Part shown: in pieces, positions 7,946 through 62,742 of the stretch
Layout: every line of letters begins with the position of its first letter
How positions within the stretch are numbered: the first letter of the stretch is position 1
DNA from: Isoetes taiwanensis
Taxonomy: Eukaryota > Streptophyta > Lycopodiopsida > Isoetales > Isoetaceae
Length of the DNA: 64,000 bases
NCBI GenBank assembly: GCA_021234155.1
Contig: JAJEKV010000537.1
Coordinates: 62,001-126,000, forward strand
Direction of reading: 5' to 3'
Position numbers and translations under genes: made by a program
The notes under the pieces: model-generated
The model's database searches: none
What the model was told of the DNA's origin: nothing
The model's input: the letters and a program-made list of their open reading frames with translations, nothing else

Positions 7946-7983
7946 GTCCCTTAAGGAAAGGCTTTTAAAAATTTTTATGTTTT

Positions 7984-16205: not shown

Positions 16206-16206
16206 G

Positions 16207-23281: not shown

Positions 23282-23304
23282 ATATATATCTGTTATATAT
23301 ATAC
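23282..23304. repeat. Short TA tract, head-to-head junction
   Basis: TA-rich bases separate the 5' end of unit 3 (minus strand) from the 5' end of the next, plus-strand element. The strand of the chain switches here. Confidence 0.7.
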
Positions 23305-23310
23305 AATAAC

Positions 23311-23425
23311 TTAAGCTGCCCCCTTATGGATAGAGATTTGGGTGTCGCCATTTGGGCCGTCCAAATTCGAGATCGACGGTCTACGCAATGACACCCAAAT
23401 CTCTATCCATAAGGGGGCAGCTTAA
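23311..23425. repeat. Perfect 36-bp inverted repeat with 43-bp spacer
   Basis: Arms 23311-23346 and 23390-23425 are exact reverse complements, starting TTAAGCTGCCCCC and ending GGGGGCAGCTTAA. A GGCCGTC/GACGG pair lies inside the spacer. It could be a small MITE flanked by TTAA or a structured 5' end of element A. Confidence 0.85.
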
Positions 23426-23775
23426 TTCAGATTGATCTCAGCCATGGAATGTGCTGCATCAACGGCTGAGGTTTAGCCACATTTTTTCATAGCATTTAAT
23501 GCTACTTGATGAGGTGGCACTAAGCAGCCCCTTATTTGGGGCTTTTAATCTGGGCCGTCAAATGTGTTGCATCAATGGCCCTTACGTTGCCACATATCTG
23601 GAGTGCAATTAATGCTACACGATGAGGTGGCACTCAGGTGTACAAGTGGCAGATTATATTAATGGTTAAAAAGCCATTGAAATTAATGCTTAACCTCATG
23701 AGGTGGCGCCGTCTCGTGTTGTTTTTAATTTTATCCTAAAAGCCTTAAGGTGGCATATTCTATTCTATTCTATTC

Positions 23776-24170
23776 TATGGCGTGGCTGCCCGTTCATTTT
23801 CGACCCATTTTTTATTTCTTAGCAATGTTGGAGCTGCTATATCGGCGCCTGGAGATGGTGAAGCTTTGCAGTGCTATTTGCCGGGTCCTTTCTGTGTTTG
23901 TTTTTCTGCATATTCAGGCATTTCAACAATGCACAAAGGGAAAAAAAATTTGCATGCAACAGAGCATTCCGAAGTTCTTCCGAGGTGCAGCAGGGTCCCT
24001 AAAACGCTATTACAAGCAGCATTGCTCTGCTCGGAATTGAAGAGGGCCTTTGATCCCTCAGTTTTTGCCAGACCCTTGGCTGCCAGATTGGGTTCTCTTT
24101 TCGTATGCTATGTTGAAGACCATGCCTTCCTATATGGTTATTTTTGTGAAAGGAAAATTGCCTGCAGCTA
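23776..24170 (+). other. Possible captured first exon, about 115-129 codons
   Basis: Two overlapping plus-strand frames are open here. One begins near 23782 and is Ser/Ala/Arg-containing with ELKRAFDPSVFARPLAARLG before a TAA. Base composition rises to coding-like levels and AG/GT signals follow. The start resembles an organelle-targeting leader in composition only. It lies just after a (ATTCT)4 microsatellite at 23757-23778. I do not recognise the protein and cannot show that it is transcribed. Confidence 0.25.
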
Positions 24171-25440
24171 ACTTAGTGTTCGCCAGAGGTGATCTGGAGT
24201 TTTGTACTTAGTTTTAAGTATGATATGTGCTTATTCCATAAGATTGTTGCAGGAAAATATGATTGTGGCCAGCAAGAAACATTACTGTTCGTGGTCCACT
24301 CCCGTCTAAGTTGCCGTAGCTGAGGGCAGCATAGCGATATGATGAAGGTTCATTTCTTTTAAATGCGGCTCTGATTAGTCTTAACAACTTCAAAAAATAC
24401 CCTGTTAACAGCTTTCGCTGCTGGATGGGATGAACCACTCTTTAAATTTCGGCAGGTTAGCAGAGCAGCGAAACTAGGGTAACCGATTTTGCGTTCAACA
24501 GGGAAGACAACGATTTAATGCAGGTTCATTTCTTCTGCTGCTTTCTTCATTTTGGCTTGGCACTTCAAGGCATAGCCGGTGTGTTACAATGTATTTGGAA
24601 ACAAGGAGTTGTATGAAGCCGCATTTGGGAACCAATTACAGAGATTTTTCTGAGATGGAGAGTCCAGCTCTTAGAAAACGGCAGTCAACTGCTTGATTTT
24701 GGTCCCTGAGGTTTAATGCATTCATGCAAGTTAGCAATTTCAAAAGAATTCAGACTGTGCAAGCCTTTGATCTGATGCAGGAGAATTCTCCAAAGCGTTA
24801 TCTAAATCATGCTTTCTAATCAGCATATGCACCTGACCAGGCATATGAGATGATGGCAGTAACTGGCAGTAAATATGCAGCATTGTAATTGCAATGAAAA
24901 AGATCTGTGAAGATGAGGTTATCTTCTTTGCTTATTCTCATCAACTGTGAGCACTCTTATGTTCACGGCTTATCCATAAGCATAAGTCTCTGACACTGAT
25001 TATGGCAGGAATTATGTTGAATGGTGCTTCCCTGTTGTGCATGCCAACATGGAACATTTAAAGAAGCTGACACTGCAATTCGATATGCTAGAGTTGCACG
25101 CAAGCTGATGCTTTCTATACTATATGCATTCGTACATTTTTTGAAGCATGCCCACTGGGTTCTGTTAGCCATGTCTCAGAGCTAAACAAATCAACTGGGA
25201 GAGATTTGTAACGTGCTTATTTAGGAATTACTGCCGTGAAGGATCGGCAATTCAATCAAATGTTTTTTTCCAGGCTGCTTTTCTTCCTTTTAATGTCAGA
25301 TGGCCTCTAGTTTAATGGCCAATTTAGAATGCAGGGGCTTTACCTCATCTCCATCGCATGCAAAAGGATAGGAAACAATTGTCTCACTGGTACTGACCAT
25401 TTTTTTCTGAGGCTTGTGTGTCTGAGAATTGTGTGTTTAG
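24171..25440 (+). other. Non-coding or intronic stretch of element A
   Basis: Mixed composition with several TTTGCAG/GCAG acceptor-like sites, but no frame longer than about 70 codons with recognisable content. Confidence 0.3.
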
Positions 25441-25518
25441 TAGGCTACATTGTTTACAGCTATGTTTCTCATCTATGTGTTTTCTGGTATTGTTGAAATA
25501 ATCAAGAAAGGCATATGT

Positions 25519-25735
25519 TCAAAATTCGCAGGAATCCAGCTCAGCAAGGAAAGGAGCATGTTGCTGCTTTTGGTGCCTGGCAAAGGGAAGCTCAAAAAAT
25601 TGCAAAAACTATCTGCAAAAGCAATCGTGTATGTATTTTGCTTGCAGCTTTGGCTTTGAGAGCCAAGTGCATAATATGTCTCGCGTGACATATTGCTTTG
25701 GGAGGTGGTTTACCAAAGGATCGCATTGTTGAGGT
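25519..25735 (+). pseudogene. Gene fragments, the second RecA-like
   Basis: After AAAATTCGCAG (about 25530) a plus-strand exon-like frame reads NPAQQGKEHVAAFGAWQREA, then QKIAKTICKSNR, to a GTATGT donor at about 25629. A second piece at 25687-25733 reads HIALGGGLPKDRIVE and ends at a GT. Bacterial and organellar RecA proteins have ALGGGGLPKGRIVEIYG immediately before the Walker A loop, so the match is good but short. An in-frame TGA precedes it, and the Walker A exon is not found downstream. If correct, this is a scrap of a nuclear gene for organelle RecA (homologous recombination) captured by the element. The first exon is unassigned. Confidence 0.35.
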
Positions 25736-27300
25736 CTGTTACTCAAAAATCTGATATTGTTTTTAGTGTCAAATTTATTGGTCTGTGTTGTCCAGTGCTC
25801 TTGCTTTTACGCTTCCATAATCTCTAAAAACGTTCCTTGTGTGATCGGACTGTTATCTACATGAAATTTTATACGGGCTCTTAAGACACTTGATGTTCTT
25901 ATTAGGAAAGGGGCAATGATGCTCTTCATTGCAGTGATGTATTTTCTTGATATAAAATCCATTGTTCATTGATTGGGCAGTTGTGTTGTAATTTATAAAT
26001 GCCCCTCATCACACCAACACTAAGTTCAATTCTGGCAATTATTTGTAATGGTTTGCACAATGACTTATACTCAAGACCCATTAGAAGATATGGCAAATGT
26101 ATAGCCTTGCACGAAGGAATTTAAAAAGCAAATGTATAGACAAATCTGAAAAGCAACTCAATTTCTTGAGGAGATGCTTTATAAAGATGTGATTTGTTGT
26201 TGCAAAAAGGCTTCGCTTTGTTCGTCATTTTGCATTTTAGGAAATTACGGACAATATTATAACATGCGTACCAATGTCAAACGGATTTGCATGAAGGTAG
26301 AACAAACTAGTGAACACAATGCAATGACTCCATTACGTTAATATAGCGCACGAAACAGATGACTTGCAACGCCAGAACTCACACCAAGCAAATATGCATG
26401 ACTCCAAACATTCAAACGACATAGTCATATTGTTATTGCTAGTAGAACTTTGATGGACATATATTCCATGTGTTTGTTCAACAATCAGCTCAGTCTAAGT
26501 CAGAAACAACAGATTCAATAACATTATGGATCAATGTCTTTGGTTTCCAAATGGGACATAGTCTCATCAATTTGACGCATCATGGCTTATGTTTAATGGA
26601 GGTCTTTGACATTATTATTTGTTCTAGACTCAAAAGTTTCTGTACATTCTAGAATTTTATCTAGACTTACAATTTTATGCAGTTGGACGAAGCAAGTCTT
26701 GGAATGTTACAACTTTCCATATCGTACATCTCATGGTCTAATCCAATGTAGATATGCATTTTGCATGAATAGTTAACGTCTATCGTATCTCCAAACTAGA
26801 AGTAATAATGAATAACATCAACACATCAAGTAATTGAAATACACATTTATTCTCAAATGCGCTAGTAGTGAGTAAATGTGATTAACTCAAATTATTTTGG
26901 TCTTCCTTCTATATGCCGGAATTCATCTTCCTTCTATATGCCAGAATGCATTTCTAGGTGATGAGACACATGATCTTTCAAAATTTTATGACTATCAACA
27001 ACTACATATTTTCAACACTAGTGAGCCAAATCTCGATGTAGAAAGGGGCAAGCTAAAATCTTAAAGAAGATATATATGCGTTAAAGGCACTATCAATTCT
27101 CTCTGTATAGTTGGGTTGTATTTCCAGTGGGAATTGTACATCATTTAATTGACGCTAGAAGCTACAAAAAAGTCAACATATCTTGATTAGGTGTCTGTGT
27201 ACAACTCTCTCTCTCTCTCTACATCATGTGGTGCGATACAATAATGGCACTCATAGAGATAGCATTGACAGTGGCGTGCATATTATGAGGTCATAGTGCA
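25736..27300 (+). other. 3' half of element A; no gene seen
   Basis: AT-rich, short frames only; a CT microsatellite lies at about 27205-27222. The last 120 bases (27300-27420) match the 3' regions of the elements ending at 33765 and 62709 (CACTCAACTTTAGA, GTTCCC-GAT-TT, CATTGATAGTACAA). Confidence 0.4.
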
Positions 27301-27414
27301 ACTCAATTGAATTCTTGACACTCAACTTTAGACCTTGATATGTTTAAGCTTGGATTTTGTTCCCAGATATTCATGAAACATAGTTCGTACACCCATTGAT
27401 AGTACAAGAACTTG

Positions 27415-27441: not shown

Positions 27442-27445
27442 AAAT

Positions 27446-27710
27446 TATTAGGATGCCCCCTTGCGCATAGAGATTTGGATGTACCCATGCGATATAGAGA
27501 TTAATGCCAGCCGTCCAATTGAAAATGGAAGGCCATGATGCCGCCACCTCATGGGAGAGATCATGCATGGGCATAGAAATGTAATGGGGGGCATGCATGG
27601 GCATGCATGGGGGCATGCACCACATCCCCGAGCCTGAGATTTGGGTATAGAGATTGATCCTGGCCGTCCATCTCGGATTTGGACGGCCCACAAGAAAAGC
27701 CCCAATCTGA
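27446..27710 (+). repeat. Shared 5' module: ATAGAGATT boxes, GCATGCATGGG cluster, GACGG hairpin
   Basis: Three ATAGAGATT boxes (27467, 27495, 27646), a cluster of palindromic GCATGCATGGGC words (27560-27620) ending GCATGCACCACATC, and the hairpin CCGTCC-ATCTCGGATTTG-GGACGG (27663-27688) followed by AAAAGCCCC. The GCATGC cluster recurs at 42808-42855, and the hairpin recurs at 47640-47665 and 55341-55366. Confidence 0.7.
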
Positions 27711-29067
27711 TGCTTTTGCATTTTTTTTTACTCTCTGTATTTGGGGTTACGCCCGCGAGCGATATGGCCCTTTGTATGATTTGTTGGATGCGGATGCGCA
27801 GTGCGTGGATGCGATGCTCGATTTTGTATGGGAACCCTAAGCGGTGACCGGCTTTGCGGATTCGACCGAAATAGGTCGGCCGGGTTTTAGTATCTGGGAA
27901 AATGGATTTCGGTTTAAAATTTTTAGTGACAGTTTTACTCGGTTTTAAAACTTAATTCTTGTTCGCTAATGGTGCAAGCGACCTTTACCGCTTATAGTGC
28001 TAGAGAAATTCTAGATCCAGTATCTGTGCTTCCTTGCCGGATCTGGCGGTCGGATGGTAAGCGGCTATGCCGAGTTATAGAAGGATTTCCCTCCTTTTTT
28101 TTTTTTGTATGTGAGGGGGGGCATTCCGGCCGATAAATCTCATGTCCGACATTTTGGAAAGAGATCCGGAAGTAGTCGGATTAGGGTCCCCGGGCCGACG
28201 AGAGGGTTTTTTGAAATTGTTAGGTTTGAAGATGTTACTTACGGATTATAAACCTTATGGCTTGCATTCCATTCACCATTTTAACCATTTTATTGAATAC
28301 ACGTGACGGCGACCATCTGTTTGGATGAAATTGCAGCAAGGTAGATGAAAGTCATTCACATGCAGAACTTTGTATGACAATCGTAATTTCCCTCTTTTGT
28401 TGTCTTTGGATATGATGGATCAAGGGCATTCTCAAGGATTAGCTTCCTAGGGGAAACATGTGGACTATGTCTTATGCCCACGTTTTGAAATAAAAATCCT
28501 AGGGAAATCTTAAATGTCAGAAGCTTTTCTTATCTTGCATGTGTTGATATATTGTTTGACGATAAATACGGCTTGGATTCATGATGGTAAAGTTCTTAGG
28601 CGTTGATCACAGATATAGATTGTTTGACCTAAGATACACTTTTTCTTTCAGATTGGATATTAAGGCTTGGAGTGTGCAGCTTGAGAATATCGTTGATTCC
28701 TTAAAAAGGAACAAATGTCTTTTTGCGTATTAGACAAGTAAGACCTTCTAACTCAAGCTCAGTGCCTTAGTCAAATGGTAAATCGCCATAGCCATGTTTT
28801 GATGTTGCAACTTTGTTGGCGATCATTGCAAGATTGAGCTTCCTCCTATCGGACAAGCGCTGTGTGCAGTTTTGTCCATGAATAGACATATTAGTAGAGG
28901 AGATATAAGTTCGTCGAAGTGTTGCTCTCTTTTGACTACAGTATTGAAGGTACATTTTTAAAAAAATTCCTTCGTTGCATGATGTCTTATGTGTTTATCC
29001 GGGTTATGCCCTTCAAAGAAGTGTAATACAGACCTTATGACTAAAGCATGTATAACACTTTTTTCAG
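27711..29067 (+). other. Unassigned sequence upstream of the WW exons
   Basis: Exon-like GC content near 27740-27900 falls to intron-like AT content afterwards. CAG/CTG words look depleted, so true frames may be hidden. No protein recognised. Confidence 0.3.
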
Positions 29068-29565
29068 AGTGTTTCGGCAACTATAGCAGCAGCATCTGAT
29101 TGGCAGGAAGATATAGCCCCAGATGGCAGAAGGTTATTTGTTTTCCTCTCCTTTTTGTTTTTTTTTTGGTTACATGGCTTACGTGCATCACATTTTTTTA
29201 TGGCTTATGCAGGTATTATTACAACAAAAGATCAAAGCAATCTAGGTAGGAAAAACCTTGCGTAATTGATGACTCCTACCGAGGTACTTAATGTGTAGTC
29301 ATAAGATATTTTAAATGTTTGTGTCTTTGTCTTTGGTTTATTTTTAACAAACCGAAGTCTTGTGCCCGTTTTCTTCTTTTTACAGGCGTGATGCATCTAC
29401 AAGATGGAAGGAATTCACCACCGCAGATGGTCGAAAAGTATGTACTCCTTTTGTATAAAATGTTCTTTGCATGTTTGGGGCATCAATACTGAGAAGGTAT
29501 ACATTAATAGGTACTATTACAAGAAGGAAACGGCGATCAAAATGGACAATGCGGAGGAGATGAAG
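29068..29565 (+). pseudogene. PRP40-like pre-mRNA-processing protein fragment: two WW domains over four exons
   Basis: Four exon pieces lie in order between splice signals. 29068-29132 ends SDWQEDIAPDGRR; 29213-29283 continues YYYNKRSKQS and later LMTPTE in another frame; 29386-29431 gives RDASTRWKEFTTADGRK before GTATGT; 29511-29565 begins YYYKKET and in a shifted frame SKWTM before GAGGAGATGAAG and a GTACG donor. This is the tandem WW pair of plant PRP40 proteins, U1 snRNP-associated factors that bind proline-rich partners in the nucleus. Introns are retained, so capture was at DNA level. The second Trp of WW1 appears as TAG (29247-29249), and three one- or two-base shifts occur. Each break sits where the expected codons contain CTG or CAG (for example AGCTGG read as AGGTAG), so they may be miscalls. 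The FF domains and N-terminus of PRP40 are not found nearby. Confidence 0.75.
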
Positions 29566-32280
29566 GTACGAACCAAAATAAACCCATTTGTAAAACTTTT
29601 AAGCGGGCATTTGTAATGGGAAATGGAAAGTTGGGTAATATGGTTGTGAAGAATGCATTCCCTAAAAGGACCTTTCTAAGGAGAAAGATTATATTAACAT
29701 CTACAAGAGACCACTTGGGTCTATGAGACCATTTATCTGACAATCATGCAAACCTAGGGGTGCATTTGCAGTTTCTAGAGATGACATAAAAATGTAAAAG
29801 AAAAACTAAACGATGAAATCAGGATTTTCCTTTACTGCCCGTTTTCTTCTTCTTGACACTTTCATGGTTACCCCTCTTGGGATCAAATTAGATGGTCCAG
29901 GAAGGGGATCTGATTCCGTTTATTATTATTATCACCTCCAATGAGAAAGAGAGCAGTCTGCCTTTGTGTAAGGTCATTTTCCTGCATTTACATAGATCAT
30001 TACTATCATTCTTCTGCAGGTAGTGTTTAAGGATTGCGGTTATCCTAGGAAGTCGTAATATTCCAAATATGACAAGTATATTATCAAGCCAAAATTCTCT
30101 ACCTACTCGGAGCTGTATGCTTTGAAATCAGAAAACATAAAGGAACTTTTTAATAATCATTATTCGTTTGTATCTGTCAAGACCAACTTTTGTGGAATGG
30201 AATTTTAGCATTGTTTTTGTTGGATGGTTGTCTAGAAGGATGGAGAAAAATAACGGCATGTTCTAACATACGGGCAGACATGTGCTACACAGGTCTGTGG
30301 GCTGTTGCTACTGGAACGTCCGACTGTTTCTTTTGGCCCCGATCTGTTACGAGTATTTGTCATTTGCCAAGAACCATGCTCTTTTGTTGCCATGGTGTTC
30401 TTTGTCAGAACTTATCATGGAATTAGATACGTTCTAAAGTGAGGGTTTGAGCTTTTTACAATCCGGACATTGTTTGGGATTTAATTTGATCTATTGGCAT
30501 TCATGGTTTTCTACTATAACTTGGATTTTGTTTTCAGCTCTAGTGCCAAGCTTGGGCATTTACTATGTTCTTGGTCTTCGGCTGGGTTGCAATGGCTACA
30601 AGACGCCAATAATATGGCGGTAAACATGTTTTTCAACTCGGAACTTTTGCGGATTTAACATCCTTGGTGTCACGTGAACACGATGCGACCAAAGAGCACA
30701 TATTCTAGAATGGCTTCACAAAATCAGGTACCAAGTTTTTGAGAAGCATTCATAGATCGTTGTTGTTCGGATGCTTGCACTTTGATAATGTATGTAGTTG
30801 TATAAAGATGCCATTCTTAGAGATCGCATCCACTATGCATATAAATGATTTTATTTTCAAGGGCGACTAGTTGGATTTGCCTTACCTTATACATCTTAAA
30901 GCAAAGAACAACAAAGCGTGCTAGGTAGAGTGATGACCATCGCTGAGCATTGGTCTCGACATGATTAAGGCTAAACCAATGGAGTATCTAGCGGGATGAG
31001 TTTTGTGCAACATCAAAGCTGAAAGCAGTCTATGGTCCTTTGTGGAAAACTCCTTATCATGCCATTCGGATCTCCTGTTTTGTGTTGTAAGCACAGTATG
31101 ATTGTAATAACGTTTTCAGAGGTCTAACATACAATGTGTTTCTTTTTAGGCCCTCGAGCAAATGGTGGCAATAGTTCCGAAATTGTTTCAAAACAATGAG
31201 CTGTTGAACCAAGCAAAGTTATTCCTTGGCTTCGAAGGGATACTGGTAAGCTCAAGGCTCAATCGGGTTTGAGCTTTAGGCGACTTGATGAGTTCTATTT
31301 TTGGGGAAGGTAGCGGTGTGAATCTTCCCATTCGAGAGCCTTCTCAAGAGATGCAAGCCAACCAGTTTTTTTGAAAGAATACCGTAATATAGAATGTTTC
31401 CATTGCACTTTTACATAATCTCTTTAAATTCTTTCCTCACTGCAAAATCCATCTCAAAGTGACCCCTTGAACATACAGTCGTATTCCACCAAGGTGGATT
31501 CTTGAGTCATAATCACCAATTGTCTTCACACCAAGATGTGATACGCTATTACAACACAGTCCCAAATATCCTCTGCATGATGTTCTTCGTTTCCTCCCAC
31601 CCATCATGTTTCAATGCCCAGCTTGGATGTAAAAGAGGTATGCCTCAACCATTGCAACCTCCTGTTATCCAAAACTTCGACCACACCTGCATCGATGACA
31701 CAGAGCGGGACTTATATTATACGTGTCTTTGAGCAAATCTAATTTCTCTGAAGAAGTCTGGACATTTACCTCAACTTGATTCTCTATGAAGTTTTTACCA
31801 GATTGTAGCTAGGCCATGAGGAACAATTGGTGGTAACTGGTGAACTTTTTCATGTGACAGTAGTGACCCAAATGTATGGATTTTTATTTTTGGAAAATAA
31901 CATGCATTCGACACCAATAAAGTCCAACCCTCTTTGTCAATGTCCCTCGCCTTATTGAAGCAAAGTAGATAAATTTTACCAGCAATTGCTATACATTTGG
32001 GGTAGCCACAGAAAATTTGACATTTTCGCATTAAATTTTCCCAAGTTTTTACTAGTTCTTGCTAGCTTAAGAGGAAACATGAAGCAAGCAGAATATACAA
32101 AAATATAATAGGATAAGAGGATAAAGATATCCCCATTCTTAATGCTAACTTCTCTGTTATCATTTAAATATGGTAGCACTTAGCTATTATAGGACAATGA
32201 GACAAAATGCCAGCCCACAAGTGTGGAGCTTCAAAAATGCTATTTGCAAGTTCATATTCATCAAATAGAAAATAAATTAT
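29566..32280 (+). other. Middle of element B; no gene identified
   Basis: Several short open stretches, for example 31143-31240 reading ALEQMVAIVPKLFQNNELL, follow AG sites and may be exons of other captured fragments, but none is recognised. Confidence 0.3.
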
Positions 32281-32308
32281 ATTTTATAAGATAGGAAATA
32301 TTAGAACC

Positions 32309-32530
32309 ATGGGCACACTTGGCACATTTGGCACACTTGGTACATTTGGTGATGGAATCAAAATTCTACAACTTTTGTTTGCCTTCTGTAGCACACTTGG
32401 CACATTTGGTGATGGAATCAAAATTCTACAACTTTTGTTTGCCTTCTGTAGCACACTTGGCAATGGAATCGAAATTCTACAACTTTTATTTGCCTTGTGT
32501 AGCACACTTGGCACATTTGGTGATGGAATC
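32309..32530. repeat. 60-bp minisatellite, about 3.5 copies
   Basis: Units beginning CACATTTGGTGATGGAATC recur at 32341, 32401 and, after a 51-bp variant unit, 32511. Because the unit is a multiple of three, several frames on both strands stay open and encode 20-residue repeats. This is a consequence of the period, not evidence of a gene. Confidence 0.9.
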
Positions 32531-33409
32531 CCTGTCCACGGGGTACTCGTTTTTCCAAGCAAAGTGGGGCTTTGATCGTTGGCCCATTTAAATACATGTT
32601 ATTCTTTATGTCATGGCTTAATCACAATGACACATCTACATGTAAAATTGACATTGCAGTGCTAGATTTGAGCCATTTGATAGCCTATAAGGCTTTTGCA
32701 AAACAACATATTTTCCAGACGATGTTTTTACATATAAACAAATGGGCGAAAAACTAAATTAAGTTACTATAGATTACCAAAGAGGGCCATTATGGATGAG
32801 AAACAAGCTTTTAGTATACCACTTCGACACGACATTGAATCACTCTTATTTTGTGGGCGAAGAAGTTCTAATAAACCTATTTGTGAGCCTTTGACTACTT
32901 AAAGTTCTAATAAAGAATGGTGAGTTTCATTGAATGGCTATCAGAGATTTTAGTTTAAAACTTCATGACTTTGAAGTAGATGCATACTGTTATTTGTGTG
33001 ATGGGACAATTGAGAAGGACCATTGAATCATTTCTTATTTTGTAGACGAAGAAGTTCTAATAATAAACGGTGAGTTCGCTAAGCGATTTAGCTTAAAGCT
33101 TCATGACTTTCAACTAGATGCATACTGCCATTTAAAAAGGTAAAATCTCAAACAAGATATGCACTAAAGACATTAATAGTCTGCAATGTGATGACAACAA
33201 ATTAGTGGATTATGACACTCGAATTCAACTTGAACAAACAATATTTTAGAAGCCATCTATGACTATATGTTAAGAGAAATACTATGAAATTGTATGCAGT
33301 AAACATGGATTAGTTTAAATAAAAGCTTTGGCTTTGAATTATTCATTTAACTTAACTCTTTCAATTTAATTCAAATTTAGGTTTGCTTTTCGATTTAATC
33401 TCACCCATT

Positions 33410-33411
<2 letters not shown>
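32531..33411 (+). other. 3' part of element B; nothing recognised
   Basis: AT-rich. A block with GAAGAAGTTCTAATAA and GCTTCATGACTTTGAAGTAGATGC-type words occurs twice (about 32858-32990 and 33045-33125), an imperfect duplication. Confidence 0.4.
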
Positions 33412-33499
<88 letters not shown>

Positions 33500-33509
33500 T
33501 ATATATATA
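33412..33509. repeat. (GATA)n microsatellite, about 21 units, ending in TA
   Basis: Uninterrupted GATA repeats pass directly into a short (TA)n. Confidence 0.95.
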
Positions 33510-33765
33510 GGTCCACAAGAACTAAGGTAACTTCAACTTTCAACTTTGTTAATAAACTCTTCACCGAAAAGTTCTAATAAACAATTTGGATGACTATTAG
33601 AAAGGGATTTAGCTTACGACTAGATGCATACTGCTTTGTTTTTTACCTATGACTTCTTCTAACTTAATTCTTAACACTCAACTTTAGATACTGATGTAGA
33701 CTTTACTCCCATATGTTCGTAAACTATAGCTGATAAACCCATTGATAGTACAAAAACTTGTATAT

Positions 33766-33796
33766 CTGTTATATATATACATATATATATATATCA
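33766..33796. repeat. TA tract between element B and the first 4.4-kb element
   Basis: Interrupted (TA)n follows ACTTG; the next element starts TCAAATTAACGGATGG. Confidence 0.8.
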
Positions 33797-35440: not shown

Positions 35441-35668
35441 GAGGCCCTAAGTTCTCGATAATGGCGGAAATGGCTGCAAGTACTCATCCGATATGGTATC
35501 ATGGTAAAGAATGCCGCATCGTCATTGGGCATGGACAAGTTCCGCCTAGCAGATGCCGATCATGCAAATCGACTCCATCTCGGAACGGGTACTTCTTCAT
35601 CCCGCTAAATTTACATGGCTTTCTATTTTAGCTAAAGCAAATCATGGAGGCGACATGGCTAACGATGC

Positions 35669-38232: not shown

Positions 38233-38337
<105 letters not shown>

Positions 38338-42360: not shown

Positions 42361-42807
<447 letters not shown>

Positions 42808-47437: not shown

Positions 47438-47690
<253 letters not shown>

Positions 47691-51740: not shown

Positions 51741-54700
51741 TCTACGGCCACTTTCATAATTGAACCACTTTCTTACTGAACCACTTTCATAGATGTTCAC
51801 GGAAGCTGCCATCATTTTAGAATTGTATTCCTTTTAAAAATAAGAGAGCTGAGATATGCTTACAATGCTTCAGAGGCCATCTGAGATTATAAGGCGGAAA
51901 CAAGCATGTGCAGTTTGGTTCCCCATACATTGATCGACCGCTCATGAATTGTCTTTCTCAACCCGCAGCTAACATGCAGTATGGAAATCTAAAGAAGTCC
52001 CTCGAAACGCCATTGCAAAACCATTTAACTCAAATAAGCCTTGAGAAGCTGGGTTTTGCCCTCTTAGCAAATTGTTTTGATTATTAATCTTTATGATGGT
52101 TACATAGATGAGGAAGGATTCAGAGGATGTGCACTTACTTGCTCGGGTTTATCCTGTTTGAAGTGGGATCTCATTGGGGGAGCCAAGTTGGTCTTCAATC
52201 ACGGATGAGGGAATCCTTATGGATGTCTCAAGCATATAAAATTCAATGGTTTTGCCACTTTATAAATGTAACATTTCGCCAAAGGTTGCAATCCAGTGGA
52301 ACTGTGGGTCCGCTTTGCCTTTTATTTATCAAGGTAAAAGTGTGAATGCCAAATCTCGCATATGCCTCAGAAGTTCCATGGATCCCCACGCCATCAAAAA
52401 AGAAGGTAAACATGTCCGGGATCCCAACATTTTTAATTGTTGACCCAGAGGTGAAAATAGGTTCGCCGAAAAAAAAGGAACGCAAAAACAGACCTCAAAC
52501 AATACGAGCTAGATTGTGACTAAGGTGTGCAAAGATCTTTCTTCAACTTTGCCGGTTTTGCCCGACTAAGGCCTAAAATTTGCGCTCAAACAAAAACAAC
52601 TTGAGGATTAACTAATATATAAAAATAAATGAATGTAATTTTAAATTCTCATTTTAAGAGTTGGTAAACATACGTTTGAAAATCCCTACTCCAACTCATG
52701 CATCCAAGAAAGTTATAATAGCACCCAAATATTTATATGAAAAATTAACATGTAGAATATACTATTAGATGCACCACTAGCATTTTAACAAGAATAATAC
52801 CAACCAACACGCAGATGACTTACAATGACCCATTCTGATTTCCAAGGAAAAAAAACAAGCCATCGCTCACGGTCGATCACTGCTCGCTGGTGAGATAAGG
52901 AAAAACACAAGCCACGCTCTCACAATTGGATCAATTGCTCGCCGCTGAGATAATATTAACCAACACCTTGCGGCAAAACGTGAAGCATAAGTAAATATAA
53001 ATAACAAAAAAATGCAGCCATGGAAAGGGCTGGTAAATAAGACCAAACGGGTAAAGCGAGAAGTTTGAATAAGAAAATGAATCATCAAAGGAATCTCGAG
53101 TTTATATATACCCATTAGTGTAGAAGTTTCTAAGTGCAAGAATCCTCATCAATGTCCATAAGAAAAGCAATGGAGCAAACAAAGCAACGAATTACTCGCA
53201 AATCCAAATGGCTCTGCATGTTTGGACAGTAGCGTGTCTCATATCGTATAAATTCTCTAAGGTATGTTGCTCCTTTGCCAAATAGTCATTTCATGGAAGC
53301 ATAATATTCTTAAGGCACAATTTGCCTTATAGTGTCAACAAAAATAAAATATGTTGAACATAAGACCTCTAGGAAATTTTCTAAGATCTTCTATTGAAAT
53401 TGATTTATGTGCAAGAGCCATATTACCGTAGCCTTTTTTTAAAAAAAAATTAGGGCCAATGGCCATGTAGGGTTTCGACATGGCTAACTGTGCTCGCATA
53501 TGAAGGAGATACGGCTTCCAAGCTTTTAACACATACAAATGCCACAACCGATTTACTTGTGAAATTTGTATCTAATTCGGATTTAACTTTAAGAATCGTG
53601 TTTGGATGAAATGCTCAATCAGAGGGATCATGTTGCAAAACCATCGGGGATGATACAAATGCCCCGTTATTTATATGATGATGAGAGAATAAGCCGCTTT
53701 TACGGGGTTACAAGGCATACCGTATATGCTTCCAGGCAGAATATAGACTGGAGGATGGATCTATATGCTAGCTTAGGCATTTTGGTACTACTTCATGTTT
53801 GACATTCTCAGTTCAAACTTTAAGTTAGACGTTGAAAATATTATATAAGAAATAATAATGACCAACCTTACACCGGCCTAAATTTTATCCGAAACTTTTG
53901 CATGGGATGATAGAACTTTAGTTCCTTTGCAATGTTCCACATTTTTTATGACTAAAATGGCAGAGACCAGTGCATGATATGAAGAAAAGAACTCGAATTT
54001 TTTTCTAGTTTTGAGTACCATGATCTTTAGTGTGGATGGTAGTTGAAGAATGTACACGGTGACCACTTTATGGAAACCTAATGTTCAGGAGTCCAAGCAA
54101 AATTTTTATGTGGTAAAAGAAAATCACCGTGTTGATGGAGGGTTGTTTGCAACCAGGTCTTGACTTTGACTTCTTATGTGTAGCTTGACCTTTTAAAGTG
54201 CAATTCAAATTAAACTTAACGATTCAATTTGAGCTTGCCCACTACAGTGACTTTGACGTAAAATCGTTATACTCACTTTTTCCTCTAAGCTTCCTAGCAA
54301 TGCACAACCTCAACTTAGATGGTCTGACCTTTTTACCATCAATGTCAATTAATTTGTTAAATTATTTTGCACCTTTACGCTTGTTGAGGTTTCTTTATGA
54401 AAGAAGACATTGAATTTGACTTATCTAATATAAAGCCACACCGCAATTGATCGACCTTAATTGGGCATGGTCCTTTTGTTGGGGCCCTTATTGGGCATGG
54501 TACTTACTTTAGCAAATGCATGGTCCCTGTGTTTCGAAAAAATTGGGCCATCTTTATCTTAGGAAAGAACAACTCTTTGCTTCTATTAACATTTTCAAGA
54601 TTTCAAGGTTATCAAATCCCAAATACTATGGCAATTTTTTTTTTAGGGTAGTTGAAGAATATATGTAGCGACCACTTTAATGAAAGCCAATATTGAGCAA

Positions 54701-54962
54701 TCCAATGACAAATTTTGGGAAGTATAGGAAACAAACAAAGACTTGCAAGAGAGCATTGACAATATGTGACTGGCATTATGGCTAGGGGTTTGACTATAAG
54801 TTTGACAAAATGGATGATTCAGAGTTTGTGCAGGTGTTGATCACAATTAGAGCTTTGTCTTTAACTTCCTAGCTGTAGCTTTGATTGGGTTTTGCACTAC
54901 GTTGACTTTGACATCTTAGCAAGCTACTAGTTGACTTGATACTCCCTAATAGTACAAATACT
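51741..54962 (+). other. 3' half of element D; no gene identified
   Basis: AT-rich with short unsupported frames. Two related stretches, 54005-54160 and 54650-54800 (GTAGTTGAAGAAT, GACCACTTTA, CCAATGACAAATTTT-like words), indicate an internal duplication. Confidence 0.35.
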
Positions 54963-54992
54963 TGTATATATATCCTTATCCTTATATATATA
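54963..54992. repeat. TA tract between elements D and E
   Basis: ACTTG, interrupted (TA)n with CCTTATCC, then ACAATTATATGG, the next 5' end. Confidence 0.8.
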
Positions 54993-55385
54993 CAATTATA
55001 TGGTGTCCTGATGATGGTGTATCGATTGATCGGCCCATCCATCGAGACGGACGTGCGAGCACGTGCCCACCGTAACACCCCAAGCATCCCCCTTATTTGG
55101 GGCTTTTAATCCTGCCCTCGCCGGTGGGGCATTTTATCCAGAACCGGCCCATTAAAATTATTTGGGGCTTTTCATATGGAGCGTCAGAAAAAAGGGAAGG
55201 TCAAATCTTGGCCATCAATTTTGGATAGGAAGTTGCGGGGAAGGTGATAGAATTGGGGCTTTTAATCCAGATCATTCGGGCCGTCGAATGTGCGAGATCG
55301 ACGGCCCAGATGTGGACCTTTATTTGGGGCATTTGATCTCGACCGTCCATCTCGGATTTGGACGGCCCACAACAAAAGCCCCAAA
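54993..55385 (+). repeat. Shared 5' module of element E
   Basis: Four (A/T)TTGGGGC(T/A)TTT boxes (55094, 55158, 55253, 55324) and the hairpin ATTTGGGGC...GACCGTCC-ATCTCGGATTT-GGACGG...GCCCCAAAT at 55321-55387. The first 280 bases align with 62743-63030. Confidence 0.75.
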
Positions 55386-56260
55386 TTCTCTTCTCACGCC
55401 GGAGCAGAGCTCGAAACTTGGATTTCTTCGTGTCTGTGTTATGGCTGCAATGTGGAGCGCCATTCGAGTTTCGGTTTGTTGCTGATGGCTGCTCATTTCC
55501 ATTCTTAGACGAAAATATTCACTGCACTCAGAGCATTGTTGCCAAGTTACCCATATATTTTTCAAGTACGAATTTTACCAGCTCTTTGGTAAACCATTGT
55601 TTGCAAATGGGGTCGAGCTTATGAACTGGCCGATTGGAGAGATGGTGTGCACCTTGTGCATGTAAGCTTAAGTTTTCCTTTTTTTGTTTTCTTAATTTCT
55701 ATTGGGATGCCTAGGATTTGCTAAATCCGATGCCTCTGGGCTGCAAAGTTCAGGGTTATAAGGGCCTGTTATATTGATGAGGCTTCGACCAAGTTTGGAT
55801 ACGGCATGATGGAGCTGCCATAGTCGACCGAACTTTGCAATAAATGGGCCGAAATTGCCTGGATGGTGCTTCTTTGAGCAGTAGAAATCGAAATTATATC
55901 TCTGGCATGCTTTTTGGAAAGCGGTATCAGAGATGGATTCAGGGCTCCGGAGATTTTTCTCTAGCTTATAATCTGTTAAATAATTTTAAGGTAAAAGCTT
56001 TAGTAGCAGCATCTCTGAAGGTGACCCACTGACGGTTTTGGCCAGTCTGAATGCTGCGAAACATATGATTGGGTTTCAGTTTCTTAACATAGTGTGTGGA
56101 ACAAGCTTTTGGGGACAAGATACTGTGCTGTTCAAATACCCATCAGCATAGCTTCCAGCAAGATTCGATTGCATATCCAGCTACTAAGAAGGTAATTTTT
56201 CTGAGAACAAAATTTGCAAAACAGAGTAGTTATCTCTAGATTCTATCTATTGTTCTATAG
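55386..56260 (+). other. Cargo of element E, first part: possible 5' exon and introns
   Basis: Directly after the hairpin an ATG at 55441 opens AAMWSAIRVSVCC, then stops. AG- and GT-bounded open pieces follow to about 56020 (GTGACCC). The texture resembles the 5' end of a plant gene. Not recognised. Confidence 0.3.
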
Positions 56261-56494
56261 TTTTCAAGCACTACCGTATGGTTTTTTCGGAAGATCCACT
56301 GGTATTCTTTGATGAGCAAAATAAGTAGAAAGATCTAGAATTAGAGTTAAAACTGTTGATACTGTTAATGGGTTGGAATAAAGCATTTTAGAATGGGTCG
56401 GCTGGTATGGGCAGCGATCACATATGGTCTGTTTGCTATTTTTGAGGCTACAACCATGGCAAAGTATCAAAGCTGGAGATTCGTTTTGCTGCAT

Positions 56495-56785
56495 TTGAAC
56501 CCATTTGTACTATGAATTTGGAAAAGATGTACCTAACATCTTTTATAGGCTACTCTATAAGCTTTCTAATGCATGCTTATGTTTTAGAAATGGAGCTTCC
56601 TTGTTGAAGCTAGGCCCCTGTTATTACTCTGCTGTAAAATTAGAGCAGCAAATGCATTTTGTCATATTCGACATATTTAGATTAGGAATTTGAAAATTGT
56701 GTGCCTAGTGTTACTTTCAGGTCTTTCCTTAAGCTTCCAAATGAATGCTCCTGTTGGCAAAACAGAGCTTGCATTTGCAAGGTAT
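56495..56785. repeat. Diverged copy of the element D 340-bp block
   Basis: Shares CTGCTGTAAAATTAGA, CAGCAAATGCATTTTG, GTGTGCCTAG, AGGTCTT and GAGCTTGCATTTG in the same order as 49858-50186. Confidence 0.8.
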
Positions 56786-57599
56786 GGCAATCCTACCATA
56801 GGCATTGTCTTGTTTGGGATGGACAGACAGCTGTCGTTGATATTATGAAGAGGTAGTTAACCTATTTACATGCTTTTAGTTTGTAAGCTGAATGTTAATG
56901 GAGTGAATACAGGCATTTGGAATTAAATTCATCCATGTTTATATGTTTGCCTGGCGTTAGAACCGGCAAGAGGTTTTATGTATGAAAGCCTCACGGAATA
57001 TGGATCTAATTCTCCTCCCTGGCTTGCTATGTCAGTCATGTTCTAGATTCTGTTGGGCCTCTTCTTTGCTATATCAGAACATGCTAGATGGCTTGCAGAT
57101 CATTTAGCAGTTGGTATTGTACGTTATAAGTGGCTCGTTCTAGTTTTGTTTCTCCAGGTTGCCTTGCTGATGCCATGATTTGTGAGTACCCATTTCTGAG
57201 TTTTACCCGGATCAGAGTTTGAAGTGGTCCTTGAACTTGGTCAGAAGGCCAATGCACTGTAGCAGTTAATGTCTTTTATGAAGAACAATCTTCACAAGTC
57301 TTCACAAGACAGTGTGCCAAATAAAAGGCGTTAATTTACGTTATGCCAGTTCAGTTAGTAAGTTAATGATCTAGCATGATATTTACTCTTGCTCAAGGAT
57401 TACTTTAACTGTTGTTCTGGTCTTGCAGTTGGTAAGGCTCATTGCCCATGTCTCCTGTGGAAGGCTCTCCATCAGTGTTTCACGTAATTTGCAACCTTCC
57501 TATAGGATAATATGATGAATGAATGTTCTTTTATAGGATGTTTAGAACTTGAGGCCAAAAACACCACTAAAAATGGCATTTTTTAAGCCATCTCTTTCA

Positions 57600-58850
57600 T
57601 AGATTTTTTGGCCTCTGTTTTTGTTATTATTAATTGTTTCTTTGATAACTTTCTTGCAGTCCTTTTTCTTCTGGTAGGTGGAATTTTCGTCGAAAGTTGC
57701 TTGATGAAACCAAATTCCCGGTCTGTTCTAACTGCTCTTAAAAGGATTGAGCCAATAAATTTCACAGTTATAGCAACAGGATCTGGTCCACTTTTTACGC
57801 TATAATGTTGTCGAGCTTATATACAAATATGAAACTTGGAGTAAGAAGGCGTTAGAAAAGCAGCTAGCTAGTGTCGCTGTTCTTTATGTTTCTGACTATG
57901 GGGTTTAGTGACCGTCTTTCTCAAGTAAGTACTCCCCTTTCATGTCATTTGAACTTATTACATATAACAATGGCTTATGTATAGCTTTATTGCCTTTGAG
58001 AAGCATAAATATTCATGATCTTTGTCATTGAAACATCACGGGAACTTCTTTGGACCAAATTGTACGCTTATTATTATTTTAATCCAGGCTGCTCCACAGA
58101 AACATAAGTTATCCACATCATTGCATTTATGAACTGCATGTCATAGTATTCTGTTGAGGATTTGAAAATGGAGTTTCTTACTTTATACCTTCAGGCACTG
58201 GCAAGAGGATTGACAAAAGCGAATGAGGGAGTTGAGATGATCAATTTGAATTCCGTGGACACACAGGAATTAGTGGAAACAATAGGAAAGAATGGTGTTG
58301 TAGTTGTAATCGCACCACCAAGTTCTGGATCTGCTAATGCAATAGTCAGCACTACCAAGTTCTGGATCTGTAAAACCCAATATCGAGAACATCATGTTTT
58401 CGTTTTTATATTATTTTCTCCATACAGCAAATTTTCCCATGTTTTTCCTAGTTTGCTATTAAAGTGCAGGTCATATGACACGTCTTATGCCTGTGTCATC
58501 TATGCTTCCTTCTGCCATAATTTTTCTACGTAAGGCATCTCATGCAGCCAGACTCTTGGTTGCTGGGACATTTGGCAGCAGGTATATCTGGCATGCCCTT
58601 GTGACTTTACAGTATGCGGCTATCCTGATTTTACAGTATATGAATATCCTAAATTGTGATTTGTTTGAAAAGATGTAACCTCTTTGCAACTGGATTTTGC
58701 AGCTTGTTCTAATAGCAGAGAGCTATGGTGGTGATGACCAACCAGTTGATACACTACTTCAGCGATTTCTTGAAGCTGGACTTTCTTCTGCCCTTCCCTC
58801 TTTAAGGGTTAAGGAATGTTTTGTTCTTACTTAGAAGATTTCTCCTCCTC
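57600..58850 (+). other. Cargo of element E, second part: several exon-like pieces of an unidentified gene
   Basis: After TTGCAG, 57660-57805 is open in more than one frame (including RWNFRRKLLDETKFP). After TTCAG, 58195-58360 reads ALARGLTKANEGVEMINLNS, then DTQELVETIGKNGVVVVIAP. After GTGCAG, 58470-58580 reads TRLMPVSSMLPSAIIFLRKA. After TTGCAG, 58703-58830 reads LVLIAESYGGDDQPVDTLLQ, then RFLEAGLSSALPSLRVKE. Each is bordered by good AG/GT signals, all in one direction, as in a plant gene with 80-300-base introns. The pieces look like a soluble enzyme or regulatory protein. I could not place the family. Confidence 0.4.
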
Positions 58851-61800
58851 AAGAATAGCAAATCAGCGCATCTGCGCATAGGTAAATGCCCTTTTCATCT
58901 GACTATTACTATTTTAAAGGCTTACGTTCTTATTATTTTGCACTTGCAATGCGCATGGAATGCAGATGTGCCATCTTGAAGTGGCTCTTAGCAGCAAGGC
59001 AACATGTCTTATTATATTAGAGAATTGGTTCATTTTTTACCAATAGAGGTTAGATACTCTATCCCTGAAACCTCACTTACGTTTTAATTATTATAGGAGA
59101 ATTTGTGCTCAGCCTATTTCTTACACAACGATAGCAACTTGCTACTGTGGATAACTTGTGCATCATTGCGGGAGATGCCTTTGCAATTCATTGATAAGTC
59201 ATTTTCGATTGGATCTACTATCTGTGGATGTTGTCTCAGGTATTCTGATGCAAAGTTTTATTTTTGTACTATTTGATCTTCACTGCGCTGTAAATTTGTC
59301 TACAAAACCTTCAGGTTGTTGAGACACAAAGATGATTCAGAAATATTTAATACTAGTTTGATGGTTTGCAGACTTGGCAGTGGCAATCTTTAACTTTGCA
59401 TCTGTTGTAGCTGACGTTGATCTTGTGGTAAGTACACATGTTTTGTTTAAACTAATATATAAAGACTATGAAAAGTTTGGCTGGGCTATTATTCTCACAT
59501 TTCCCATTTGGGCAGGGCCTTCAAAATGTTGGCAAGGGAGCACATCTGGGTAAGGTAACTCCCATGCTTAAAAAGATCCAAGATCCAAGATCCCAAGGTA
59601 AATGGGTCTGCTCATACCGAGGGCTTCATAGAAACCTTCTTGGCATAGATTGCAGGATGCAAATTTTATGTATACAAAACTCAGGGTCTAAACAGGGCGG
59701 TGGCATAATTGAGGGGAGCAAACGAGTTCCAGCTATGAAAGGTGCTTATTTATTTTGAGGCAACTTTTAGGTTCTTTTTGCTCAGAGAAAGTCAAGCACA
59801 GTATATCTGATATGGGTCAAATGCAATCCAGTTGCATTGTACTTTGCACTCTGTTTTTTTGTATCATGGCTTCTATCTTGATTTTCAACATTGTGAACCA
59901 GATTCATGTATGTCTTCCCATGTGTTTTATGGCGAATCAATCTATTGTTCAATGCTTGTTTTGACATTTACCGTTGTCTTTCTCTCCTTTTAGGGACACA
60001 GAGTCTATAGGGCCATTCAACTTTCTATATGATTTTTTCTCTCTAGATTTCTTAAAATTTACAATAATGTTAGCAGTCAATATTTTGAAGGCTTATTGGT
60101 AAGTTGAGTCATGTTTTTAGTAAATATCTGCATGGAGGGCAACTTCACTTGGGTTGGTGGTTCTGTGATGTAGGCTTAGGTCCTTGATGCAAATGTAGAG
60201 ACTGTAAATTGAGTTGTTGCATTTTGTTTTGGGGTTAGAATTTGCTCTAGATTTAGCAACATATATTGGAAAGAATTAAGTTCGCTCACTAATCTCATTA
60301 TGGGTGCACATGTGCCTAAAGTGGATCTTCATGCATGCATAGTATTAATTTTGCTATTGCAAGCATTTGAAATGAGAAATGTGTCATCCTGATATTGAGG
60401 TTGGTATATTGTTACTGCACACCGTGTAGTTTCTTGCAAGATGCCTAGCTTGCTGTGATGAATGCTGCATCATGCATAAATGGATGTTACGGTAAAAATG
60501 GCTGTATTTTGGCATTTTGTGTTGTGTTGGTATTGTTACCGCATTCTCTAATAGGCCATTCTTTTTGCAGATTCTAGATGCAGTTCTAAAGTGGGTTATT
60601 TGAATCACTGCAAAAGGGAGCATATCTTGACTTGAGTAGTTTGTTTCACTTAGATGGGCATATTTTGGTAATGCTCAAGCTCTGGAGAGTCAATGCGAAT
60701 GGCTTTTTGAACATTATTTATCAAGAACCTGTTCCTTTTTGCAGCTACTTATTCATGGCAGGAGTAATAAGAGAATGATGATTGAACAGTTTAGTCATTT
60801 CTAAGTCAGTATGATGCAAGATGCATTCATAGAAAAGGCAGGCATGGCTAAACCTCTTAAACATCAGCTAATTAGGGCTATACATTAACATGTCTGTTGC
60901 ACTACTCTGCATGTGACAATACTTTGCAACAGACATTGCTCAAGCATTTTAGAGTGTACATCCAAATAAATGTGTATAAATGCCTTCACATATGTTTGAA
61001 CACATGTATAGTGTCTGAATACATTGCCTGTACGTCGCCTAGAAATGGCTAAACTAGCAGAAAGATTTGTAGAGAAGAATAGTTGATAAACTGCATTTAG
61101 ATTATTAAATTGTTTGATTAAGGCTCATTTGTAGATATTTCATGCCAAGATAATAGTTATTGTTGGAGCACAATTTTGCTCATGCAGGGCTCTATTTTAT
61201 ATTCTGATTCACCAATACCCGCTCATGTTGTCTAGATGTCGTTTTAGAGCGGCTAAAACTTTTACATTCAATCTTTTGACTGTTTAAGTCTATTTATTGA
61301 TCCCGTTGCCATTTATAGTGACTTTATCCCTTATAGGGTAAGTTTAGCATTGCCGTTCATACTATTTGATAAATTTGTGGTTTTGCGGCCCCGGTTTTGG
61401 CGATAAGAGTAAATCGTGTCATTTTTTTTTAGCAAGGGGTTTCCTCTCAATTAGGCTTCTTTTTTCGCAGACGATCTCTTGATCCCTAGGTTCTTGTGAT
61501 CCGTTGTTTTGCATTTTCACGCCGTGGTGAACTCTTAGAACTAGCCTTTTTAGAGCTATTGGGGCGATTATGTTTCTATTTGATCTGTATTTGATCTCTT
61601 CCGATACCGACTTGATTTGTCGATGCAATTACCCGTGTCTTGATGCCTTTATGTTTCAAATACTTGCCATGGAAAGTGGGTCGCGCCCGAAGTGGGTCAT
61701 GATTCGCGGCGATACTTGCTAAGATAGCGTGACTACCATTTATAAAAAATGCAACTAACCAACTTTCCTCTAGGCTTTATGTTGCTATTTTCTTAAATAA

Positions 61801-62105
61801 AGATCTCCTATCTTTTTTTTTTATTCCAATTAGCATTTGAAGTAAAATTTTAGTATTTTATTCCAACTGGGGAGCTTAAATTCATTGGTTTAGCATTAGA
61901 AAATAGCAATTATATCTTTTAATTGCATGAGTTGCACAATGTGCCTTTTAATCAGAATTGTCATATGAAACAAATATTTATCCAACTTCATCTATTAAAA
62001 ACATGGGGAAATATCATAATTTCTTAGAATAGAATAGAATAGAATAGTTTCTAAAGATAATTTCTAAAGATCTCCCAAGTTCCACTCCACCATTGCATTG
62101 AAGTT
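58851..62105 (+). other. 3' part of element E; no gene identified
   Basis: 58850-58915 (AAGAATAGC-AATC-GC-CATCTG, ATAGGTAAATGCC) resembles 51176-51240 of element D. The rest is AT-rich with unsupported frames; an (AGAAT)4 run lies at 62027-62046. Confidence 0.35.
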
Positions 62106-62709
62106 GATTCCCTTTTTATAGAGATTTGGGTGGCGCCTGCGGGCCGGGCCCGTGATCCGAGATCGATGGTTCGGATGGTGTCACCTCAATCCAGGCCAAG
62201 CACCCCCCTTCTTTATAGAGATTGATCCTGGCCGTCGGTGTATGAAATGACGGTCTACAATAAAAGCCCAAATTAGCAGCCATCGCCGCTTTTATTTCTT
62301 CCATCTTGTGCTTGTGTCTATTTTTGGTACAATTTGTCTTGCATAAATTATGGCATATATTATGGCATGGAGAGTATGTTTTGCTTTGCATTTTTGTGTA
62401 CATGCCATCCATGGCATTGCCCTTCTTTGTCCATAAAATAAGTGACGGGTTTGCAGATTTTGTCACCAAGTTGCGAGGAGAATCTTGCAATTATCAATTC
62501 ATCTCTACTCTTAAATAAATTGCATTTCTCGTTGCGTGTGTTTGAAAGTAGGCATATGCCTTTAAATGCTATATAATGGCAAGTTGGTATTAGTCCAACA
62601 AATGAAATTTTTAGACTAGCTTAGTTTAGGCCTTGATTTATTTAAGCTTGAATTTTGTTCCCGGATGTTTATGGACCATAGTTCATAGACCATCGATAGT
62701 ACAAAGACT
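62106..62709 (+). repeat. Second 5'-type module and common 3' end, possibly a small nested element
   Basis: ATAGAGATT boxes at 62120 and 62214, a CCGTC...GACGG pair and AAAAGCCCAAAT at 62264-62275 repeat the 5' module. The tail from 62615 (TTTAGGCCTTGAT, TTTAAGCTTGAATTTTGTTC) matches 27328-27420. Confidence 0.5.
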
Positions 62710-62742
62710 TGTATATATATATCCTTATATTTATACAATTAT
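62710..62742. repeat. TA tract between element E and the last element
   Basis: ACTTG, (TA)n with a CCTTATATT interruption, then ACAATTATATGG as at 54993. Confidence 0.8.

Follow-up and report, generated by a model that had tools for sequence, protein, structure and literature searches.

What kind of process strings unrelated elements together along a chromosome with little but (TA)n between them? The question is raised by a window of 64,000 nucleotides from Isoetes taiwanensis, for which an initial annotation described eight plus-strand units meeting at TA. TA-rich junctions do bound all eight (Table 1). The chain, however, does not begin at 23.3 kb, as had been stated: Ma, mid, Mb and Mc (3042–23290) are joined likewise, at least 20 kb further to the left, and the earlier account omitted the RT-bearing units found there, which are the likely engine. 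The junctions include head-to-head and tail-to-tail types, and the chain occupies both strands; we gave up the idea of a one-orientation chain as the sign of growth from a break because of these junctions. Ma and mid are separated by a short TA run with imperfections, and the 5′ end of mid also lies near TA in L012, L073 and L077 and beside R copies.

Table 1. Features of the window, with the basis on which each was assigned
Feature	Position	Strand	Basis
Ma, partial RT-type unit (5′ 4.4 kb; beyond differs from Mb and Mc)	3042..7459	-	sequence identity
mid, tail-to-tail with Mb; 5′ end TCGCGCTTATCCG, 3′ end AAATTTCTTG(TA)n	7467..9152	+	junctions
Mb, RT-bearing, decayed frames, 3′ end GGGCTTACTTG(TA)n	9177..16206	-	identity and junctions
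Mc, RT-bearing, three ORFs, RT frame interrupted	16242..23290	-	identity and junctions
Mc RT coding region, several frames	16397..18514	-	tblastn 18466-16403, E 5e-75
Mc ORF-B, conserved, 48% to L044 ORF	19015..20649	-	sequence comparison
Mc ORF-A	22161..22838	-	relatives in L044, L045, E3
E1, gene-carrying type	23304..27414	+	ATAGTACAAARACTTG end
E2, gene-carrying type	27442..33760	+	ATAGTACAAARACTTG end and junctions
E3, RT-unit relative; ORF-A remnant 35663-35992	33795..38232	+	protein relation
E4, second copy of E3 type	38336..42453	+	90.5% identical to E3
E5, gene-carrying type	42551..47439	+	ATAGTACAAARACTTG end
Pure (TA)n junction, example	47440..47534		95 nt
E6, gene-carrying type, flush start at GGGGCTTTTAATC box	47535..54964	+	junction sequence
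E7, gene-carrying type, multi-copy	54993..62711	+	copies at other loci
Gene-like exon fragments inside E7	58195..58831	+	sequence comparison
E8, next element, interrupted by window end	62736..64000	+	54949-55276 vs 62696-63018, 79.0%

First, does the 3′ end that had been assigned to five of these elements, running into (TA)n, mark anything beyond this locus? All five ends were located in the window (27399, 33745, 47424, 54949 and 62696; up to two mismatches, shuffle mean 0.21), each with TATA immediately after it. Across the 1.66-Gb genome the 16-base end ATAGTACAAARACTTG has 1,338 exact copies, as against 16 for a reversed control, and TATATA follows directly in 1,008 of them (control 0), so that 330 do not run into it. 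At 20 fetched loci, 25 of the 29 ATAGTACAAARACTTG sites have a TA run of 8 nt or more within 20 nt and four lack it, compared with 1.1% of random windows that have one. These genome counts support a fixed 3′ end with the TA tract as junction; ends coincide with TA in most copies, and apparently non-nested arrays joined by microsatellites are seen in the window and at the sampled loci. The TA-tract-linked chain is a genome-wide phenomenon, and the observation behind the initial annotation is confirmed. Its further proposal, that the microsatellite is also the target, is borne out at one site, where empty paralogues carry a short TA run, read on the 3′ side only.

Copies of E7 show in addition that the blocks are separate, since the E7 body occurs at seven further loci, in some with a different 5′ module, and has different neighbours at different loci; the blocks are therefore not a single unit that happens to contain microsatellites. 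As long TA tracts are prone to breakage, ordinary genome fragments might have been joined at such fragile sites without any defined elements, but the sheer number of exact 3′ ends, the recurring 5′ ends and the dispersed E7 copies, up to 99% identical over the probe and with the gene-like piece travelling along, make this highly improbable. A telomeric chain was likewise rejected: a search for TTTAGGG pairs gave none, TTTAGGGTTTAGGG being absent from the window (up to two mismatches) and from 94 loci (exact).

Second, the units are not all of one kind. E1, E2, E5, E6 and E7 share ATAGTACAAARACTTG and are a second class, without TIRs, whereas E3 and E4, which the initial annotation had included in the chain, belong to a different class. 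The 5′ boxes, which had been described as fixed, vary in number and position; E6 starts flush at one of them, and the 5′ module differs among copies of one body. The 5′ region of E1 contains a 36-bp inverted repeat (23311–23425), and E5 opens with a 257-bp palindrome of 127-nt arms, at the centre of which lies a normal-looking 5′ end. The 3′ end of E1 folds no better than shuffles (z -0.02). As cargo, the elements carry gene-like pieces in a multi-exon arrangement, so the intron-bearing cargo of the initial annotation is apparent from sequence, with splice sites not proven. No Pfam family exceeded the cut-off for ten cargo frames of the window; a sister element with both boundaries defined carries a PPR array, and one sampled TA-bounded element has a PPR frame of 359 aa. 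Among familiar classes, LTR elements appear unlikely, as in self-BLAST the gene-carrying units are not flanked by LTR-like direct repeats, and so do Helitrons, whose 3′ end is expected to be CTRR and not the ACTTG seen here. The paper on Isoetes taiwanensis describes many PPR genes, often misclassified as repeats (part of PMC8566536).

Might these five be an unrelated class of DNA transposons, SaTar/MULE-like or unknown, with only the TA target in common with Penelope-like RT units? Capture at the DNA level would naturally keep introns in the cargo, many gene-carrying elements have (TA)nCAA, read inward, at both ends, the genome contains MULE transposases (150 scored of 1,020 candidates), and SaTars are described in similar arrays, non-nested and microsatellite-linked (PMC5907723, in part). 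Yet a comparison of the 5′ 600 with the reversed 3′ 600 bases in nine elements shows no match at the termini and so no TIR, where guayule SaTars have 40–250 bp; E6 is shortened and the 5′ modules of the E7 type are changed while the 3′ end stays constant; and MULE matches lie near the ends in 0 of 8 cases, a small sample. On balance we find this origin unlikely.

Third, the RT-bearing units offer a candidate engine. Mb and Mc are 7-kb units of three ORFs, one a reverse transcriptase, arranged head-to-tail with a TA tract between them, and Ma is 92.7% identical to 11790–16222 and 94.6% to 18871–23302 by self-BLAST. E3 gives no RT match; by protein comparison E3 and E4 belong to the clade of the minus-strand RT units, and the 5′ end of E3 is the same as in L036, L039 and L040. 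Among 15 other RT copies sampled, 13 have a TA tract at the 3′ end (missing in L032 and L043) and 11, judged by eye, have a same-type 5′ end next. The predicted fold of the RT family is closest to telomerase (model of the relative P0002, with telomerase rows first), Pfam RVT_1 is matched in L045 (3.9e-07), and relatives of the RT occur in Selaginella, with none found in viral contigs. No GIY-YIG or other endonuclease domain was matched by Pfam in seven ORFs at E up to 1, and Rfam found no hammerhead ribozyme, a common but non-defining trait of Penelope-like elements, in 9 loci at E up to 1. ORF-B of Mc has no Pfam match, its L044 counterpart has no database relatives, and its structure model is poor (pLDDT 42). 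The 3′ leader of the RT units is conserved and in Mc folds better than shuffles (z -3.24), with no compensatory changes or covariation. The units are best read as endonuclease-less Penelope-like retroelements with a putatively telomerase-like RT.

Chains need not have grown by reverse transcription if circular or broken TA-ended molecules joined existing TA tracts by recombination, modules piling up without a dedicated insertion enzyme. A circle model has been proposed for SaTars (PMC5907723, in part); the head-to-tail tandem in L044, which shares one TA tract, fits circle integration, and module swaps among copies also favour recombination. Recombination by itself, however, makes no new copies, while the RT copies, of which 84 were scored and many retain open frames of ~700 aa, point to replicative spread, and we regard it as improbable. 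One tandem pair of RT units is 99.3% identical.

How, then, could the chain have been built? At roughly even odds, our reading is that separate mobile elements, their ends meeting at (TA)n, make up the window, and that a predicted telomerase-like, apparently endonuclease-less Penelope-like RT, encoded by some of the links, likely built the chain by retrotransposition into TA tracts. In this model the (UA)n tail of a transcript would anneal to a 3′ end freed where a TA tract is broken or melted, and the RT would prime there. Every copy would arrive with a TA tail of its own as a fresh target, so that links would be added beside links and not inside them. The gene-carrying elements may be mobilised in trans by this RT, by analogy with a bdelloid Penelope element; such movement would account for the kept introns, the changed or shortened 5′ ends and, through self-priming, the 5′ palindromes. 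Since no RT-bearing element with a ATAGTACAAARACTTG end was found and RT remnants were seen at 0 of 20 gene-carrying loci, the trans step rests on the shared target and the company that the two classes keep. Against shared machinery, their 3′ sequences are alike in little beyond CTTG(TA)n, and this only in some RT copies. The ends that lack a tract (two of 15 RT copies, four of 29 motif sites), the 3′ leader without compensatory changes, the negative hammerhead search and the one-sided view of the empty site also weigh against the retrotransposition reading.

A broader idea can be put forward only tentatively: a telomerase-related, endonuclease-less lineage might have swapped chromosome ends for (TA)n, using broken or melted TA as primer and perhaps lengthening the TA tail, with a large passenger population that ferries unspliced host genes and a lycophyte genome made up in part of self-extending, gene-bearing, TA-linked chains. 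If the retrotransposition reading is true, a telomerase-like RT without endonuclease could spread inside chromosomes, a self-complementary, break-prone microsatellite serving as both primer and new landing site. Modular TA arrays would be extended from small MULEs to retroelements, and plants would be given a way of spreading genes with their introns which, judged by intron loss, could not be distinguished from DNA-level duplication.

Finally, the view that the chain matches no standard class was overstated, as both SaTar arrays (PMC5907723) and gene movement and chains of Penelope-like elements (PMC3846280, PMC6431247) are described in parts of the published record. MuTAnT of Medicago and SaTar of guayule and rice are presented as MULEs that target TA microsatellites (parts of PMC5907723, PMC4486113), and SaTars also as non-nested arrays of unrelated elements in (TA)n. 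Both resemble the present elements in their insertion into (TA)n, and SaTars also in their microsatellite-joined arrays, which here are apparently non-nested as well. Guayule SaTars, however, are ~0.4–1.7 kb long with TIRs, whereas the links here measure 1.2–7.7 kb, had no TIR found, carry gene pieces and include RT-bearing members; the target site duplications of SaTars and MULEs (8–11 bp) would be invisible inside TA tracts. TA tracts are favoured by MULEs too, an observation that counts against the RT explanation.

Among retroelements, EN(-)PLEs have been catalogued in Selaginella and in conifers (PMC9033089, in part), those of Selaginella being called telomere-associated (PMC12477314, in part), and Penelope-like elements are reported as movers of intron-containing genes and as chain formers. 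In the bdelloid Penelope case, 5′ palindromes and head-to-head copies are explained by self-priming (PMC3846280, in part), and an intron-bearing gene is framed by element ends; all three features have counterparts here, the introns being apparent ones. That element has a GIY-YIG endonuclease and target site duplications, whereas here the elements meet at TA tracts, and the 3′ motif that marks the gene-carrying class occurs more than 1,000 times. Bdelloid Terminons are described with an endonuclease-deficient telomerase-like RT, several ORFs, a 3′ structure followed by a simple repeat, and head-to-tail chains with host genes inside (PMC6431247, in part). The simple repeat here is (TA)n and not telomeric, and no hammerhead was found; in its RT without an endonuclease domain match, several ORFs, 3′ structure and simple repeat, head-to-tail chains and gene pieces, the present chain resembles the Terminons.

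The chain of mobile elements and its TA junctions are firmly established, and our reasoned guess is that the reverse transcriptase (RT) of neighboring units, a likely Penelope-like and apparently endonuclease-less enzyme that would dock on TA tracts, moves the gene-carrying class (E1, E2, E5, E6 and E7) as well. All five copies of the 16-base motif that ends this class at 3′ are present in the window, against a shuffle expectation of 0.21, each followed immediately by TATA. Across the 1.658-Gb assembly (1,110 contigs, the window being positions 62001-126000 of C261), the exact motif occurs at 1,338 sites versus 16 for the reversed control, and TATATA stands directly 3′ of 1,008 of them (control, 0). 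Twenty loci chosen from the first 100 listed places hold 29 motif sites with at most two mismatches, 27 of which run at once into TATA; a TA tract 8 nt or longer lies within 20 nt of 25 sites and of none of the other four, compared with 1.1% of random windows from the same loci. On the far side of the tract, 16 of the 20 target ends face a script-recognized end of a different TA-bounded family, a seventeenth such junction (L022) was recognized by eye, and the remaining three (L009, L024, L026) have a different flank.

The flank past the L026 3′ end is a dispersed repeat. Judged by eye, 12 of its 16 examined paralogues continue through the insertion point; they share a single left flank, and at the point itself they carry a short TA run, which reaches 8 nt or more in seven of them. 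L083, L087 and L093 deviate from this pattern, L089 partly so. The initial annotation had proposed a search for isolated copies whose empty allele is a plain TA tract, and these TA-bearing empty paralogues bear it out for the 3′ side of the site only. TA runs also mark R, a further repeat first recognized as the flank of L011: all 20 copies examined (ranks 2 to 21 of 40 scored, from 3,885 candidates) have one at the 5′ boundary, across which lies R's own 3′ end in 11, the element type “mid” in three, a gene-carrying end in three and a sequence without script assignment in three. At L066, the R junction examined at length, RT ORFs of the same broad family lie upstream, their link to R being putative.

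Annotated relatives of the RT, which is likely Penelope-like, occur in Selaginella (P0101, P0106). A genome search scored 84 matches among 4,072 candidates; many of the matches have an open frame of close to 700 aa. It is firmly established that most RT units are TA-bounded: where the 3′ side was examined (15 of the 84), the RT frame is followed in 13 by a tract of 8 nt or more, which L032 and L043 lack, and by eye a same-type 5′ end comes directly next in 11, with a looser likeness in L034, L035, L037 and L038. The tract is preceded by a conserved leader, CCTTCCGGTAGGAGGTAGGG, based on 16 sequences (the 13 TA-bounded copies, the window units Mb and Mc, and L044; L032 and L043 were left out). 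The Mc leader folds strongly (z −3.24), and the RT-unit leader contains no compensatory changes. In L044, two RT regions spaced 6.93 kb apart are 99.3% identical across 1,875 columns, and a single TA tract separates them. The window elements E3 and E4 have an ORF-A segment in common with the RT units and share their 5′ end with L036, L039 and L040. The mid-unit switch in the window link Ma (see table) suggests that RT units too may be modular.

In the E7 family, surveyed through both-end stretches of six further copies and L015, most copies keep the same 3′ end and the 5′ end is variable, as follows from 3′ stops at the motif plus TA combined with differing 5′ modules. L067, L071, L073, L077 and L015 stop at the motif (0–1 mismatches) and TA, beyond which lie gene-carrying 5′ ends (L067, L071, L015), “mid” (L077), or other sequence and then “mid” (L073). 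L075 breaks within the motif and is joined without TA to an E7-like 5′ part, and the L069 stretch stops short of the 3′ end. The E7 5′ module is present in L068 and L076; L070, L072 and L078 are 93–97% identical to E7 in the body and about 72–77% in the first 150 bases, part of the module being missing; L015 has a different module, and the L074 stretch has no match to E7. A 257-base palindrome opens E5 and surrounds what looks like a normal 5′ end, and E1 contains an inverted repeat of 36 bases; for such palindromes in Penelope elements, self-priming has been proposed (PMC3846280).

E7 carries exon-like frames separated by putative introns with splice-like ends. A 651-base probe from its exon part gave 48 matched pieces (40 scored of 44 candidates), with up to 99% identity on another scaffold and, in several copies, a gap near probe position 490. 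A Pfam search on frames of sister loci found, at L019, whose element has TA junctions on both sides, a PPR array (PF13041, 1.3e-74) and a kinase piece slightly under cut-off (PF00069, 1.7e-07); this array may be relevant to the abundance of PPR genes in the lineage. At L024, PQQ pieces fall in two distinct frames, each below cut-off (8e-06 and 0.004), and at L023 a hAT C-terminus passes the cut-off; since no 5′ end of the element was seen in the fetched stretch at either locus, these pieces may lie outside the element.

Positions of internal features in the window links and fetched loci
Sequence	Positions	Feature	Remark
L019	2829-3905	PPR array in 359 aa open frame	inside TA-bounded gene-carrying element
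E6	49858-51750	353-bp repeat units	
E7	56512-56786	diverged relative of the E6 units	
E2	33411-33507	(AGAT)24 microsatellite	internal, away from junctions
L066	5415-9900	tandem field opening R, period about 1.1 kb	adjoins TA boundary of R
mid	8123-8971	10/20-bp repeat field (TTCTAGAAAG type)	L012 matches this part too
Ma	3042	mid-unit switch to unrelated sequence	

Which engine moves the gene-carrying class? It is possible that the class originated as a DNA transposon, as the genome does contain MULE transposases. Terminal inverted repeats (TIRs) are absent from all five window members, and none of the 20 gene-carrying loci has an RT remnant. In a small sample covering gene-carrying ends from part of the genome (contigs up to C261, where end positions were listed), five of eight RT matches and none of eight MULE matches are no more than 20 kb away from such an end (p 0.026); with the window left out, the RT figure is four of seven (p 0.026). 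Mobilization by the RT remains our reasoned guess.

Within the open-licence literature, we found no report that connects TA-tract targeting in plants to Penelope-like elements, nor one on Penelope in Isoetes. Penelope elements are said to favor simple AT-rich targets, and in a rotifer a Penelope element mobilized an intron-bearing gene (PMC3846280); an in-vitro study describes tandem organization and an AT-rich cleavage preference (PMC11167929); Selaginella Penelope-like elements are called telomere-associated (PMC12477314); and Terminons are chains of endonuclease-less Penelope-like elements with telomeric repeats (PMC6431247). For MuTAnT, TA microsatellites are the target (PMC4486113). SaTar arrays likewise have a non-nested, microsatellite-linked layout, but their links are small TIR elements (PMC5907723).
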